Source of the DNA: Actinocorallia sp. API 0066
GTDB taxonomy: Bacteria > Actinomycetota > Actinomycetes > Streptosporangiales > Streptosporangiaceae
DNA length: 64,000 bases
NCBI RefSeq assembly: GCF_020991275.1
Contig: NZ_JAJLQY010000001.1
Coordinates: forward strand, 744,001-808,000
Reading direction: 5' to 3'
Under the pieces are notes generated by a model. The model saw only the letters and a program-made list of their open reading frames with translations, searched no databases and had not been told where the DNA came from. Below are positions 13,592 to 62,560 of the stretch, piece after piece; position 1 is the first letter of the stretch; each line of letters opens with the position of its first letter. Position numbers and translations under genes: made by a program.

Positions 13592-15550
13592 ATGAGCCAG
13601 CAAGGCCGGAGTGATCGGAGGGGTGCCACGTCCGGGGAGACCATCGGCCCGTACCGCCTCGCCGAGGTGCTCGGTGAGGGCGGCATGGGAGTCGTGCGCC
13701 GGGGAACCGACCCGGCGGGGCGCGCGGTCGCGGTGAAGCTGCTGCGCGGCGCGTCGGACGAGACGGCGCTGCGGCGGCTGGCCCGCGAGGTGGACACCAT
13801 GCGCCGGGTGCGCAGCCCGTACGTCGCGCAGATCGTGGACGCCGACGTCACCCACGAGCCGCCCTACATCGTCACCCAGTACGTGCCGGGCAAGACGCTG
13901 GAGCAGACCGTCGAGTCGCAGGGGCCGTTGTCGGGGCACGCCCTGAAGCGGCTGGCGTGGGGCCTGGCCGAGGCGCTCGCGGCGATCCACTCCTCCGGGA
14001 TCGTGCACCGCGACCTGAAGCCGGGCAACGTGATGTTCGCCGGGAACGGCGACCCGATCCTCATCGACTTCGGCATCGCCCAGCCGGTGGACGCGACCCG
14101 GCTGACGTCGGCGGGCATGGTCATCGGCACGCCCGGCTACCTGGCCCCCGAACTCCTGAACGGCGAGGACTTCCGCGCGCCCGCCGACGTGCACGCGCTG
14201 GCCGGCACGGTGATCTACGCGTCGACGGGTCGGCCGCCGTTCGGCACCGGCACGTTCGAGCAGATCTTCGCGAAGATCATCCAGGGCACGCCGGACCTGG
14301 ACGGCGTCCCGCCGGCGCTGCTGCCGCTGCTGCGCGGCGCGATGGCGCAGAACCCGGCCGAGCGCCCCACCGCCAAGAACGTCGCGGCCCTGGTCGAGCG
14401 CATCGACCTGGAGATGACGATGTTCGACCAGACGATGCTGGACGACAGGGCGGCGCACGGCCAGCCCGCGCCGTCGGACGCGCGGGACGCGCACCAGCGG
14501 CCGCGGACGGGCCCGGCGCATCCGGTGGCGCCGCCTCCGGCCGTCCAGGAGATCCCGCGCCAGCCGTCCGGGAGGCTGCCGCAGCCGAGCGACTTCATGG
14601 GGCAGCTGCCCCCGGTGGCGCCGCCTCCGGAGCCGTACCCGCAGCAGGACATGTACGAGACGCGGCGGCTGCCCCCGACCGGGGCGAACCCGTACGACCC
14701 TTACCCGACATCGGATGACCGGCCTTACGCGCCGCCGCCTCCGCCGGGCGCCATGTACGGGCCGCCTTCGCCGTCGGCGCAGCAGCCCTACCAGACGCCG
14801 CCGCCCTGGGCGGGCCCGCAGGGCAACCCCTACGGCGCCGACCAGCCCTACGCGCCTCCGCCGCCGCACCAGCCGCTTCCGTGGGCGGATCCGCGGCCTC
14901 AGGCCCCGGAGACGGCCACGGACCGGACGTCGGCGGACAGGCCGCAGGAGCCGAAGCCGTTCGGCCTGTACCAGGTGCTCGGCTTCCTGCTGCTCACCGG
15001 CATACTCGCGCTCGCCTGGGCGGTGCCCGCCACCGCGTTCGTCGTCGCGGTGGGCGCGACGGTGCTGCTGCGCGCGGGCGACAAGGCGGCGCAGGGCACC
15101 GAGTCGCGCCGGACGAGGCGCGGCGAGCGGGAGTCCGACCTCGCCTCGACGCTGCTGCGCACGCCCCTGCACCTGCCGGGGACGATCATCAGCACGGCCG
15201 TCATCGCGCTGACGAACCTGCTCCTCGGCATGGTCGTCGCCGCGGTGCTCGTCGGGGTGGGCCAGGAGGGCAACCGCGCGGTGACGCTCGGCACGATGCT
15301 CGCGGTCTTCCTCCAGTTCTGGGGGATGGGCGGCACCGCCTCGCGGCGCCAGCTCGCCCGGATCTGGGGCGGTGTGCTGCCGCGCCGCGAGCCCGCGCTC
15401 ATCGCCGTCCTGTGCGTCGGCGCCGCCGTGGCGGTGCTCGCGCTCATGGTCTACGACGGGCAGCCCGATCCCGGTGCTTTCGGCGGTTTCGCGGGCTGGC
15501 TCGAGGACGCCCGCGCGACGATCAGGGGCTGGGTCGAGCGGATCGGCTAG
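13592..15550 (+). CDS. Transmembrane Ser/Thr protein kinase
   Basis: A 652-residue PknB-type (Hanks) kinase starting at the ATG at 13592; an in-frame TTG nine bases upstream is less likely. The glycine loop LGEGGMGVV is near residue 28, catalytic Lys49 in VAVKLL, HRDLKPGN at about 139-146 and DFG at 159-161; GTPGYLAPE forms the P+1 region. After the kinase domain comes a long Pro/Tyr/Gln-rich linker (about 290-460), then three to four membrane helices at the C-terminus and no PASTA repeats. The linker segment MTMFDQTMLDD may carry phosphorylated threonines. The signal sensed is unknown. Confidence 0.92.
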   Translation: MSQQGRSDRRGATSGETIGPYRLAEVLGEGGMGVVRRGTDPAGRAVAVKLLRGASDETALRRLAREVDTMRRVRSPYVAQIVDADVTHEPPYIVTQYVPGKTLEQTVESQGPLSGHALKRLAWGLAEALAAIHSSGIVHRDLKPGNVMFAGNGDPILIDFGIAQPVDATRLTSAGMVIGTPGYLAPELLNGEDFRAPADVHALAGTVIYASTGRPPFGTGTFEQIFAKIIQGTPDLDGVPPALLPLLRGAMAQNPAERPTAKNVAALVERIDLEMTMFDQTMLDDRAAHGQPAPSDARDAHQRPRTGPAHPVAPPPAVQEIPRQPSGRLPQPSDFMGQLPPVAPPPEPYPQQDMYETRRLPPTGANPYDPYPTSDDRPYAPPPPPGAMYGPPSPSAQQPYQTPPPWAGPQGNPYGADQPYAPPPPHQPLPWADPRPQAPETATDRTSADRPQEPKPFGLYQVLGFLLLTGILALAWAVPATAFVVAVGATVLLRAGDKAAQGTESRRTRRGERESDLASTLLRTPLHLPGTIISTAVIALTNLLLGMVVAAVLVGVGQEGNRAVTLGTMLAVFLQFWGMGGTASRRQLARIWGGVLPRREPALIAVLCVGAAVAVLALMVYDGQPDPGAFGGFAGWLEDARATIRGWVERIG

Positions 15551-57124: not shown

Positions 57125-57481
57125 TCAGCCCTCCTTGGGTTCGACCTTCTGGATCACCTCGAAGGCCCACAGTTCGGCTGCCGTCGAGGCCGGACCGCCG
57201 TGGCCGTGCCCGTGGCCGTGCCCGGCGGCCTGCGCGTCGGCGGCGGCCTTCGCGTGGCCCTGCACGAACGCCGCGCTCTTCGTCCAGTTCTCGAAGTCCT
57301 CCTCGCTGCGCCACCGCGTGTAGACGAGATACTTCTCCGTCCCGTCCGTCGGGCGCAGCAGCTCGAACCCCTCGAACCCCGCCGACCCCTCCACCAGCCC
57401 GGCCCGGTGCGCGAACCGCTTCTCCAGCTCGGCTCCGTTTCCCTCCGGCACCGTCAACACGTTGATCTTCACCACCGACAC
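57125..57481 (-). CDS. Antibiotic biosynthesis monooxygenase (ABM) domain protein
   Basis: A 118-residue dimeric alpha/beta-barrel protein: MSVVKINVLTVPEGNGAELEKRFAHRAGLVE, GFEGFELLRPTDGTEKYLVYTRWRSEEDFENW and SAAFVQGHA (read in parts) fit the ABM/IsdG-MhuD family that includes haem-degrading and quinone-forming monooxygenases. An unusual GHGHGHGHGG insertion near residue 88 could bind metal. Its stop is 3 bp from the stop of the convergent GNAT gene. Confidence 0.85.
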   Translation of the reverse strand: MSVVKINVLTVPEGNGAELEKRFAHRAGLVEGSAGFEGFELLRPTDGTEKYLVYTRWRSEEDFENWTKSAAFVQGHAKAAADAQAAGHGHGHGHGGPASTAAELWAFEVIQKVEPKEG

Positions 57482-57749
57482 GCCGATCCTCCTCTACCGA
57501 TCCGCCGCCGACCCCGCGTCGGCGCCACCCCCAACGCTATAACCGCGCACGGCCACGCGACGGCCCGCGTCCCCAACCTGTGGATAACCTCGCGCGTCGG
57601 CCGGACATCTGCGGGATGGGCACTTGTGGGGGATTGGCGGCGTTGGACGGGGAGAGCTTCCGGTTCGGGCGGCGTGGGTGGGAGTGGGTCCGAACCGGGG
57701 GTGGGGGAGCGGCGTCGGATCGTGCGGGACGCGTGGAGGAGGAGACGTC

Positions 57750-58811
57750 GTGGGCGGTGGCGACGAACGGGCGACGCGGCGGGATCTGCCGCTGCCGCGC
57801 CGGAAGAGGCAGGCCGAGGAACCGCCTGTCACGGTCGTCGAGAGCGCGGCCAAACCCCTGGTGCCGCCGCCCGCGGCGGCCCAGGACACGGCCGAACAGA
57901 CCATCGTGGACAGGCCGCGCAAGCCGAAGTCCTCCGGCGACCGGTGGGTGGCGGGCCGCGCCCTCACCCCGCAGGAGGACGCCGCACAGGAGGGCGTCCT
58001 GTCGGACCAGTCGGAGGCGACGGTCGTCGACAGCGGCGGCGCCGCGCGGGAAGGCAATCCGCCGGATCAGTCCGAGGCGACCGTCGTGGACGGTGGGCTC
58101 GCGCTTCCGGGGCTGCCGCCCCGTCCTGAGGACGTCGTCTTCGGGTCGGCGGCGGGGGCGGAGGACGTCACCGGGCCGCAGCCGCCCCTGCCCGTCCTCA
58201 TGGGCCTGCTCGGACGCGGCGAGGTCGAGGCGTCCGAACGTGACACGGCCGACGTCAGGGTGCACCCGCCGATCTCGCCGGTCCTCGCCGAGGCGCTCTA
58301 CTCGCCGCCCAGGCCGCGCCGAAAGGTCGGGCTTGTCATCCCCGGCGTGATCGTCACCGGGCTGCTCGTGATCGGCGCCGTCGCGGCCCTCCTGTGGCCG
58401 GACGCGCCCCGCGCCCGGCCGTCCGCCCCCGGGGCCACCGGCGCCGCCGCGACGCCCGCACCGGCCCAGGGAGACGCGCAGGGCGTCTCCGGCGTGACGC
58501 CCGAAGGAGTCGAGGTCGTCTACGAGACCGTCGAAGTGGCGACGGGCTACTTCGAAGGCACGATCACCCTGACGAACGGCACGGGTGAGACGCTCCCGTC
58601 CTGGACGCTGTCGTTCACCTATCCGGGCGCCTACATCCGCAACGTGTGGGGCGGCGAGCTGACCGACCCGGGCAACGAGGTCACCATCGTCAACGACGGG
58701 AACACCGCGCCGATCGCGCCCGGCGCCAGCGTCGAGGTGAGGTTCGGGGGCGGCGGCGCCCCGTCCCGTCCGGAGAACTGCACGTTCGGTGGCACACCCT
58801 GCGGGTTCTGA
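57750..58811 (+). CDS. Single-pass membrane protein with extracellular CBM2-like domain
   Basis: GTG start at 57750 with GGAGGAG eight bases before, 353 residues. The cytoplasmic part (1-190) is acidic and repeats an E-x-T-[IV]-V-D motif: [18 protein letters not shown] and SEATVVDGG. One membrane helix follows ([24 protein letters not shown], about 194-217 after a basic RPRRK), then an Ala/Pro linker and a C-terminal domain with the CBM2 pattern ([28 protein letters not shown], read in parts; [18 protein letters not shown]; two cysteines at the end). The threonine motifs look like kinase or FHA-binding sites. A sugar-binding surface sensor is inferred. Confidence 0.75.
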
Positions 58812-58837
58812 CCGGGCCGCTATGGAAAACTGCAGGG

Positions 58838-59605
58838 ATGCGCATCGCGAGGTTTGCCGTAGGTGACGAGGTTTCTTTTGGGGTCGTGGAGGGTGCGGAG
58901 GTCGCCGCGATCGCCGCGCACCCGCTGCTGGGCGACATCGCCTTCACGGGGGGCCGCTTCCCGCTCGACGACGTGCGGCTGCTCGCGCCGATCATCCCGA
59001 ACAAGATCATCGCGATCGGCCGCAACTACGCCGAGCACGCCCGCGAGATGGGCGGCGAACCGCCCGTCGAGCCGCTGATCTTCAGCAAGCCGGCCACCTC
59101 CGTCATCGGCCCTAACCAGCCGATCCTCTACCCGGAGAAGCTGTCGCAGCGGGTGGACTACGAGGGCGAACTGGCCGTCGTCATCGGCCGGGTCTGCCGT
59201 GACGTCGCCGTGGCCCGCGCGCACGAGGTGATCTTCGGTTACACGTGCGCCAACGACGTCACCGCCCGCGACCTGCAGAAGCGCGACGGCCAGTGGACCC
59301 GCGCCAAGGGCTTCGACACCTTCTGCCCCCTGGGCCCCTGGATCGCCACCGACATCGACCCCACCGACCTGTCCATCCGCACCCTCGTCAACGGCGAGGT
59401 CCGCCAGGACGCCCGCACCTCCGCCATGATCCACGACATCCCCAACCTCATCGCCCACATCACCCAGGTCATGACCCTCCTCCCCGGCGACGTCATCCTC
59501 ACCGGCACCCCCGCCGGCATCGCCCCCCTGCACATCGGCGACACCGTCACCGTAGAGATCGAGTCCATCGGCTCCCTCCCCAACCAAGTAACCCCCCGCC
59601 CCTAA
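58838..59605 (+). CDS. Fumarylacetoacetate hydrolase family protein
   Basis: A 255-residue FAH-family enzyme: [20 protein letters not shown]-terminus, [31 protein letters not shown], and metal-binding acids in [12 protein letters not shown] with Glu-x-Glu spacing, then [35 protein letters not shown] in parts. Relatives include 5-carboxymethyl-2-hydroxymuconate isomerases and acylpyruvases. Substrate unknown. The final 260 bases have an extreme C-rich coding strand. Confidence 0.9.
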
Positions 59606-59946: not shown

Positions 59947-61548
59947 TCACGGCCCAGGACGGCCGGTTTGGGTGTTGTTCGACGCACGGACGCGCTGTGG
60001 CGGGACCACTCCTGGGATGACGTCGAGTCCCAGGTGTTCCTTGAGGAGATGCTTCAGCTCGGCACCGTTGATGAGGATGATTCGGTTGCGCTGGGCGAAC
60101 TGCTCGCTTGCCCGTCCGAACCAGGAGGGGGTGACGAGTACGCCTCTGGTGGCGTTGTGGTCCGCCATGACGCCGGTGAGCGCGTGGACGGCATCGAGGC
60201 CGACGAGTTTGGACCACCGCTTGGCCTGGATCAGGCAGACTCCGCCGAAGAGCTTGTCGTCGCTGGTCGCGACGGCGTCGACTCCTCCGTCCTTGGACGG
60301 GACGGTGGTCCATGTCTCGGCGCCCATGGCGGTGAACAGTTGTTTGATGAGGTGCTCGAATTCGGTTGGGGTCAGCTTCATGAGATTGGGTCGAGAGTCC
60401 AGGCCCGCGACGACGTCCACGTCGTCGCTGAACCGGAATCGCTTCAGGTCGAAGGTGATGAACGGCTCGACGGCCTCGATGTCGTGGGGGTTGGGTGAGA
60501 CGAGGGCGTTGAGCCGCTTGAGGCATGCGGCGGGATCGACCTTGGCGAGGACGAGCTCGCTGAAGTCGGATCGCTCGGCTTCGACGCTCACGAGGTGCGG
60601 ACGGACCTGCTTGCCGGTGGCGAGGTCCGTAGTGGTGAGCCTTCCGTTGAAGACCACGGCCTCGACGGTCGCCGGCGGCGTCGCCGTGAAGATCTCGTGC
60701 AGAGTGCGCAGCGCGACCCGCGCGATGAGCTGGGCGTAGCGCTGCTTGATCTCGGTCTGCGGCCGGGGGGTCGGGTCGATGGAGTCGCGCGTCTTCACGT
60801 ACTTGTAGCCACGGACAGCGGGGATCACGGTGGTCGGTGGCAGCTCGAAGTCTACGATCACATCGCGGTTCTCCGGGCGATACGCGACCTGGACCACGTG
60901 CGGGAACCCGTGCGGGTACTCCGATGCATCGAGAACGCGGATGACGAACCACTCGATGGACTCGGCCTCGCCGGCATCTACTCCAGTCCGACATCGAGTG
61001 ACCTTCGCGTTTTCCGCCGCAGCCCTCGCCGAGAGCTCCGCATTCTTTCTCTCGTGCTCGGAACGTGCTGCAGCAAGCTCGGCGACTCGCTGGCCCTCTC
61101 GCCGCTGATACTCCTGAAGATCTTGCCGGAAGAGTTGCTGAGCTTCCTCCAAAGCTCGCTCGTATCGAGCTTCGCCGCCGAAAAGACGCCCGACTGCACC
61201 GGGCGGAAGTGGCGCATACGCCGCGAACTCCGGCCTCTCTTCGGCGATGCGCAACCGAGCGGGAGGTTCGAAGACCGAAAGCTGAGGCTGAGAGGTCAGG
61301 TCGTCGAAACCCAGCGGCTGCCCATCGAGAGCAGCGGTCAGAACTCCATCAAGAGCCTCGATCCGGCGCTCGGTGTCAGCGGTCTTGTCCTCCGCCAGCT
61401 TCAACTGCGCTTCGACGTGGCGTTCCTTGCGTATCTTCTCGCGTTCGCGTTCTTTGCGGGCTTGCTCGCGAGCGATTCGTTCGTTCTCTCGCCGCTGCGC
61501 TGCTTGAAGCCGTTCCCACTCTGATCGCCCACTGCCTGCCCGCGTCAC
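59947..61548 (-). CDS. Mrr-type restriction endonuclease with coiled-coil N-terminus
   Basis: About 533 residues from the GTG at 61548, which has GGTGGAGG four bases upstream; ATG starts at 61566/61569 are possible but poorly supported. Residues 1-55 are a highly charged coiled coil (RENERIAREQARKEREREK). The middle domain is unassigned. The C-terminal about 140 residues are an Mrr_cat domain: LTPTEFEHLIKQLFTAMG, catalytic Asp in KDGGVDAVA and Q-x-K in CLIQAKRW. Such proteins cleave modified or foreign DNA (type IV-like). It is next to the Thoeris-like genes, read in the opposite direction. Confidence 0.85.
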   Translation of the reverse strand: MTRAGSGRSEWERLQAAQRRENERIAREQARKEREREKIRKERHVEAQLKLAEDKTADTERRIEALDGVLTAALDGQPLGFDDLTSQPQLSVFEPPARLRIAEERPEFAAYAPLPPGAVGRLFGGEARYERALEEAQQLFRQDLQEYQRREGQRVAELAAARSEHERKNAELSARAAAENAKVTRCRTGVDAGEAESIEWFVIRVLDASEYPHGFPHVVQVAYRPENRDVIVDFELPPTTVIPAVRGYKYVKTRDSIDPTPRPQTEIKQRYAQLIARVALRTLHEIFTATPPATVEAVVFNGRLTTTDLATGKQVRPHLVSVEAERSDFSELVLAKVDPAACLKRLNALVSPNPHDIEAVEPFITFDLKRFRFSDDVDVVAGLDSRPNLMKLTPTEFEHLIKQLFTAMGAETWTTVPSKDGGVDAVATSDDKLFGGVCLIQAKRWSKLVGLDAVHALTGVMADHNATRGVLVTPSWFGRASEQFAQRNRIILINGAELKHLLKEHLGLDVIPGVVPPQRVRASNNTQTGRPGP

Positions 61549-61569
61549 GTGGCCTCCACCACTCATCAT

Positions 61570-62041: not shown

Positions 62042-62560
62042 ATGGCCTATCGAAACAAGACCTATGTAGCCTTCGCTAGTGAAGACATTCACTGTTACCG
62101 GATGATGCAGGCTTGGCGGAGTAATCAGCACATAGAATTCAATTTCTTCGATGCACACGATATCAATACTGCACGGGATACTAGTCTTGATGAAACGATT
62201 AGGAGAAGGCTTAGGGAGCGTTTGATCAACGCGAAGCAGTCTGTCGTCTTGGTTAGCGATACGACGAAGTCCAAATCTGCTCGGTCATCGACATTCCTCG
62301 CCTATGAGATGGAGGTAATCGCTCGCCTAGGAATCCCGGTAGTATTTGCGAATCTGAACGGCTCGCGTGATGTACAGCATGCGAAACTTCCCCAGCAGTT
62401 GGCCAAAGTCTACTCGGTAAGTGTCTCGTTTCAACCGAAGATTATCAAGTACGCGCTCGATGGCTATGTCGAAAATTTTGCGAAGGTGTCGAAGGAGGAA
62501 TATCCCAAGCAAGGTCCACATGTCTATAATGCTAGCGTCTACAAGAGTTTGGGAATTTAG
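62042..62560 (+). CDS. thsB: TIR-like ThsB protein (Thoeris sensor/NADase)
   Basis: A 172-residue protein. The start YVAFASEDIHCYRMMQAW, the FNFFDAHDIN segment near residue 33, SVVLVSDTT near 67, and FLAYEMEVIARLGIPVVFANLNG near 85-106 fit the ThsB_TIR family (PF08937, former DUF1863). Glu89 or Glu91 in YEMEV is the probable catalytic glutamate. In Thoeris, ThsB senses phage and makes an ADP-ribose-derived signal from NAD. The gene is AT-rich and unlike the host in codon use. It is 2 bp upstream of a TM-Macro gene, which points to type II Thoeris. Confidence 0.82.
   Translation: MAYRNKTYVAFASEDIHCYRMMQAWRSNQHIEFNFFDAHDINTARDTSLDETIRRRLRERLINAKQSVVLVSDTTKSKSARSSTFLAYEMEVIARLGIPVVFANLNGSRDVQHAKLPQQLAKVYSVSVSFQPKIIKYALDGYVENFAKVSKEEYPKQGPHVYNASVYKSLGI

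Follow-up and report, generated by a model that had tools for sequence, protein, structure and literature searches.

What might a protein do for an actinobacterium if it carries repeated acidic threonine motifs inside the cell and a predicted carbohydrate-binding fold outside? The question is raised by a gene at 57750–58811 (+) in a 64,000-nucleotide stretch of the Actinocorallia sp. API 0066 genome (hereafter, the window). It has a GTG start at 57750, with GGAGGAGGAG a few bases upstream as read from the sequence, and encodes 353 amino acids; a simple scan of 57400–58900 found no promoter- or terminator-like sites. The product begins with a low-complexity N-terminal tail (residues 1–194; 57750–58331, +) high in Ala, Pro, Glu, Asp and Gly, followed by a single transmembrane segment assigned from hydropathy and flanking sequence (residues 195–216, preceded by RPRRK; 58332–58397, +), a short extracytoplasmic linker spanning the stretch from the helix to the Pfam match (residues 217–256; 58398–58517, +) and a CBM2-type domain (residues 257–351; 58518–58802, +). 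The N-terminus most likely lies inside the cell, because the net charge (K+R minus D+E) before the helix exceeds that after it in every one of the 33 named relatives whose helix is clear. The chain has no kinase domain, CBM_2 being its sole Pfam match up to an E-value of 1. A fumarylacetoacetate-hydrolase (FAA_hydrolase) gene follows 26 bases downstream (58838–59605, +), and an ABM monooxygenase gene is encoded divergently (57125–57481, −). Beyond the FAA_hydrolase gene lie two defence genes, encoding a type IV methyl-directed restriction enzyme (Mrr_cat; 59947–61569, −) and a Thoeris ThsB-type TIR protein (62042–62560, +). Judged from its sequence, the 353-residue protein may couple the cell surface to kinase signalling.

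We examined the outside domain by profile search and structure prediction. Pfam CBM_2 (PF00553) matched residues 257–351 with an E-value of 1.4e-12 (48.2 bits against a curated cut-off of 24), and NCBIfam returned only a cellobiohydrolase model, far below its cut-off (32.3 versus 1950 bits). A domain model built from this protein and 30 relatives reached a pLDDT of 93.3. Foldseek ranked CBM2 modules that bind cellulose or chitin at the top (best E 7.8e-08), and VIA-align placed the model on the Cellulomonas fimi module 6qfs with a Z-score of 13.9 and an rmsd of 1.9 over 100 residues. The C-terminal domain is thus predicted to fold like CBM2 modules, the Pfam match and the modelled beta-sandwich agreeing; the earlier note had called the domain CBM2-like and had staked its proposal on that fold. 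The family alignment shows no variation at two cysteines near the domain end (Cys344 and Cys351), which may form a disulfide outside the cell, and a G-Y-[FY]-E motif is likewise invariant. Of W17, W54 and W72 of the C. fimi Cex module, which we take to be the cellulose-binding tryptophans of CBM2a, the family keeps one: the W54 equivalent is present in all 29 aligned domains, whereas the W17 and W72 equivalents are W, Y or F in none of the 29, with the loop alignment at W72 uncertain. With these two positions non-aromatic throughout, the domain is unlikely to bind crystalline cellulose; candidate ligands are chitin, a protein or the wall of the cell itself. The glycan sensor proposed in the earlier note therefore keeps its predicted CBM2 fold, but cellulose sensing by the family is not supported.

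The three acidic E-x-T-[IV]-V-D motifs claimed for the inside part are present on the + strand, as found both by reading the sequence and by a DNA pattern search: E49-Q-T-I-V-D54 around T51 (57894–57911), E89-A-T-V-V-D94 around T91 (58014–58031) and E109-A-T-V-V-D114 around T111 (58074–58091). Also read from the + strand were a fourth, related motif, T28-V-V-E31 (57831–57842), and two sites without a hydrophobic residue at +1, T9-R-R-D (57774–57785) and T73-P-Q-E (57966–57977). Three exact motifs never arose in 100,000 shuffles of the cytoplasmic part (193 residues; mean 0.00075), and none of 20,000 matched its four T[VILM]x[DE] sites; the six looser T-x-x-[DE] sites, against a shuffle mean of 1.4, were matched by nine of 20,000. 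As a DNA pattern, the exact motif occurred 10 times in the 7.01-Mb genome, three times inside this gene and otherwise as seven single occurrences in other reading frames, compared with two for the reversed-pattern control (loci were obtained for 30 of the 31 genomic pattern matches). On the strength of the shuffles, the genome pattern counts and the counts in relatives given below, we rejected a chance origin. Copies 2 and 3 share DQSEATVVD at a spacing of 20 codons. We rejected a recent tandem duplication as their source because Tandem Repeats Finder detected no array within the gene and identity at a 60-base step reached at most 44 of 60.

Scanning 200 genomes of the bacterial family, with mostly 24 candidates scored in each, we found a CBM2 match at an E-value of 1e-15 in 59 of them. 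The best 30 of these 59 rows (E ≤2.6e-29; 30 genomes, 8 of 68 genera) formed our first set of relatives, and the long N-terminus could be read in those not ended by a contig edge. In a class-wide sample of 296 genomes with 17 candidates scored per genome, 10 genomes matched at 1e-15, one of them outside the bacterial family (4e-16); absences in these searches are soft, because only 24 or 17 candidates were scored per genome. A scan of named genomes yielded 35 loci, from Actinomadura (32), Thermomonospora (2) and Spirillospora (1), and places the protein in soil bacteria of the Actinomadura type. A single-protein scan of genome contigs found no relative. The FAA_hydrolase gene lies downstream in all 35 named loci and in 29 of the 30 first-set rows (28 of 29 distinct loci; L140 was missed by the motif used). 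Since this neighbour recurs in both sets, we regard the CBM2/threonine-array proteins beside it as positional orthologs on the strength of gene order. Another locus encodes a different family of shorter CBM2 proteins anchored in the membrane (L022, at G000:C1:866604, and L021, L005, L011 and L016). Its members likewise have a cytoplasmic N-terminus, one helix and CBM2 outside, but the N-terminus is much shorter and the motif array is absent in the five proteins read.

The earlier note had suggested a search for other proteins with the repeat, and the array indeed recurs in the FAA_hydrolase-linked relatives. Motifs were counted in 27 proteins of the first set, after dropping L136 (same locus as L003) and L139 and L143 (contig ends), and in 31 of the 35 named relatives, after dropping L177, L185, L193 and L196 (contig ends); the two sets overlap (L162/L169, L157/L166 and L144/L195 read alike) and are therefore not independent. 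Among the 31 named relatives, T-x-x-D occurred 167 times versus 45.4 in shuffles, with no excess of S-x-x-D (17 versus 32.8). With a hydrophobic residue at +1, T[VILM]xD rose to 85 versus 5.5, compared with 3 versus 3.7 for S[VILM]xD, 4 versus 12.3 for A-[VILM]xD and 2 versus 4.6 for V-[VILM]xD. Asp at the remaining offsets from +1 to +6 stayed at or below expectation, and a lesser excess was seen at +7 (90 versus 44.4). T-x-x-E was enriched neither here (53 versus 43.9) nor in the 27-protein set (33 versus about 30), and a purely acidophilic motif was rejected on this ground. Position +1 is hydrophobic, and Pro follows at +5 in 99 of the 167 T-x-x-D sites. At least three T-x-x-D sites are found in 29 of the 31 proteins, and T[VILMA]xD is singly significant at 0.05 in 24. 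The 27-protein set gave 102 T-x-x-D versus 27.7 in shuffles, with acidic residues enriched at −2 and −4; T-D neighbours were also in excess (52 versus 28.0), which probably stems from the T-x-T-D form. Common descent is not accounted for in these shuffle statistics, which matters most for the T-x-x-F sites described below; when each of 7 genera was represented by one protein, T-x-x-D still averaged 20.1 (range 12–29) versus 6.6 (largest shuffle 17).

Copy number and spacing differ by species, and the threonine and its +3 Asp stay while most of the surrounding sequence has changed, with forms such as the D-E-T-[IV]-[VE] type in L145, Q-T-A-T-D in L162 and T-V-x-E in L138. T-x-x-D is weak or absent in some relatives, with none in L003, which belongs to the same genus as the host of the 353-residue protein, or in L142, and one each in L137, L140, L144 and L195. 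L166 scored zero in a region comprising its last 230 residues, and its printed N-terminus holds two T-V-T-D. Tail length ranges from 108 to 307 residues (27-protein set). As far as sequence comparison tells, the threonine array is a fast-changing family trait. The T-x-x-D counts have the form that FHA docking calls for, Thr rather than Ser with a fixed +3 residue, except in the members where they are weak or absent. Of the earlier note's view that such threonines are typical targets of Hanks-type kinases and FHA domains, the comparison supports a Thr-specific, recurring motif with Asp at +3; phosphorylation and FHA binding are the putative part of it.

A second +3 residue emerged from the same 31 named relatives, in which T-x-x-F occurred 63 times versus 11.8 in shuffles and S-x-x-F three times versus 8.7, while T-x-x-[LIVM] was depleted (25 versus 59.6). 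T-x-x-F is present in most of these proteins. Two conserved sites, T-T-A-E-F (23 of 31) and P-W-T-x-Q-F (24 of 31 with a looser pattern), contribute most of its excess, and common descent inflates the count. The tail of the 353-residue protein holds no T-x-x-F.

A similar motif had been claimed for the kinase at 13592–15550, and we found it as LEMTMFDQTMLDD, with two overlapping T-x-x-D, at 14408–14446 (+), directly after the kinase domain (Pkinase, residues 21–264). A search of 61 genomes gave 24 matches to this kinase outside its own genome. The seven closest orthologs carry T-x-x-D at the same post-kinase place; among the other 17 matches, seven have a T-[KR]-x-L type there instead, three show a lone T-x-x-D within the stretch that was printed, and one is cut short. 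After the kinase domain of the more distant relatives L218, L219, L221, L222, L226, L231 and L234, sites of the G-T-[KR]-x-L type were seen. The long CBM2 protein was found in seven of the 61 genomes, all among the top eight for this kinase, the eighth (G003) having no CBM2 match; the co-occurrence may reflect shared ancestry. Pkinase matches number 49 in the genome, of which 48 exceed the cut-off. In a second of its kinases, L110 (G000:C42:167258), the kinase domain is followed by a denser array (DETVLD, LETVLD and HTVLE). The tail of a further kinase of the same genome, L108 (G000:C41:263709), shows a different +3 code, repeated T-[SA]-V-L (ATSVL, ATSVL, TAVL, TAVL). With 30 of the 49 matches fetched and 21 tails analyzed, T[VILM]xD occurred five times versus 1.2, a count reached by six of 1000 shuffles. 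Because 42 kb separate the two genes and the L110 array is denser, we limit the putative link between the 353-residue protein and the kinase at 13592–15550 to motif type.

As for possible readers, the genome has six FHA matches. Arg R83 of yeast Rad53 FHA1 is presumably the determinant for Asp at +3, and among the FHA domains read in the genus none has Arg at the equivalent place. FHA domains are described as phosphothreonine-specific (PMC3146460), and pTXX(D) appears among the FHA-binding motifs that have been reported (PMC5549992). The pT382 site of CwlM that is bound by FhaA has Phe at +3 (PMC6180346), the residue also found in the T-x-x-F sites of most named relatives. Thr specificity is not universal, since some FHA domains also take phosphoserine, as stated for MupFHA (PMC4238996).

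Taken together, we tentatively favour, at somewhat less than even confidence, the reading of the 353-residue protein as a kinase-less, single-pass membrane scaffold, because FHA domains recognise motifs of this kind, restricted to Thr and with one set residue at +3. Its disordered cytoplasmic tail would display several [DE]-x-T-[hydrophobic]-x-D threonines for phosphorylation by the cell's Hanks-type kinases, and FHA-domain proteins would bind the resulting phosphothreonines by recognising the residue at +3. On the outer side, the CBM2-fold domain on its flexible linker would hold the scaffold to, or sense, a surface polysaccharide or other wall component, and signalling proteins would thereby gather where that ligand is. 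In favour of this reading are the Thr-specific T-x-x-D and T-x-x-F excesses, the T-x-x-D behind the kinase domain of the 13592–15550 kinase and its seven closest orthologs, and the predicted CBM2 fold. Against it are the weak or absent arrays of some relatives, the lack of the Rad53-type Arg in the FHA domains read in the genus, the FHA domains that also take phosphoserine, the single tryptophan equivalent kept, and the preference of PknA-dependent sites of Mycobacterium tuberculosis for Leu or Val, not Asp, at +3 (PMC7164672). The same tail could instead be a multisite substrate of kinases that prefer an acidic T-x-x-D, phosphorylation altering its charge or shape or making it compete for the kinase, with no FHA reader. 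T-x-x-D after the kinase domain of the 13592–15550 kinase and its relatives would fit, as would the acidic residues at −2 and −4, given that mycobacterial STPKs are reported to favour acidic residues at −2 to −5 (PMC6030727), and an FHA domain with an obvious +3-Asp pocket was not found among those read in the genus. We nevertheless consider it unlikely: an acidophilic consensus or an effect of bulk charge should also have enriched T-x-x-E, and leaves unexplained why Phe, too, is enriched at +3 after Thr and not after Ser.

Docking that needs no phosphate, with T-x-x-D as a linear motif, is improbable in our estimation. A peptide-binding groove could read the hydrophobic +1 residue and the Pro at +5, but the strict choice of Thr over Ser, and of T[VILM]xD over its Ala and Val counterparts, points to a modified hydroxyl. 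We see still less of a case for the tail as the passive, disordered spacer of a surface glycan anchor, its T-x-x-D arising from low-complexity drift or as helix N-caps. Low complexity, variable length and the relatives with few or no motifs suit this explanation; an excess confined to one offset and one residue pair, which persists when each genus contributes one protein, does not. Helix capping boxes accept Ser as well, and were rejected as an explanation of the array, since the Ser form shows no excess and Pro at +5 speaks against a helix. Slimmest of all is the chance that the CBM2-type domain senses cellulose or chitin and signals the presence of plant or fungal polymer inward. The predicted fold and its nearest solved structures, cellulose- and chitin-binding modules, would agree with such a role, but two of the three tryptophan equivalents are non-aromatic and, within the 64-kb window, the gene does not adjoin one for a polysaccharide-degrading enzyme.

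How does the scaffold reading compare with known systems? The domain resembles the C. fimi Cex (1exg/6qfs) and Streptomyces coelicolor ChiC (2rtt) modules in CBM_2 sequence match and predicted fold, but the protein is membrane-anchored and without an enzyme, and its family has lost the W17 and W72 equivalents and has the invariant G-Y-[FY]-E. Mycobacterial MmpS3/LamA (Rv2198c) combines a disordered inside part, one helix and a beta-rich domain outside, and the likeness is an analogy of layout only; MmpS membership was rejected, as the Pfam scan up to an E-value of 1 gave CBM_2 alone, and PF05423 (MmpS) had no match in the host genome at 0.001. MmpS3/LamA is reported to be phosphorylated on 16 residues (PMC7164672) and to be a divisome component (PMC8093794). 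Docking of FhaA on CwlM and on the PknB juxtamembrane stretch shares with the putative docking here a motif that admits only Thr, keeps one residue at +3 and lies in a disordered region; FhaA is reported to bind the juxtamembrane part of a mycobacterial kinase in its phosphorylated form (PMC12077195). Unlike those sites, the arrays of the present family are multi-copy, have Asp at +3 and sit on a membrane protein that lacks a kinase domain. No such protein or family was described in the titles and abstract openings searched, which cover part of the literature. The pieces are already known; CBM2 outside combined with a threonine array inside is new to us.

A wider version of the scaffold reading, which we hold to be doubtful, would make these proteins kinase-less receptors or anchors in which an external CBM2 fold is connected to a multivalent platform of phosphothreonines on the inside, the variable T-x-x-D and conserved T-x-x-F codes gathering different FHA proteins and T-x-x-D-tailed kinases at wall-bound sites. 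Which extracellular cues feed Hanks-kinase/FHA signalling in actinobacteria is largely an open question. If the arrays are phosphorylated and read, they would provide a simple, kinase-less coupling of a surface-bound domain to this signalling, and their species-varying copy number would offer a natural series for the evolution of multivalent phosphothreonine docking.
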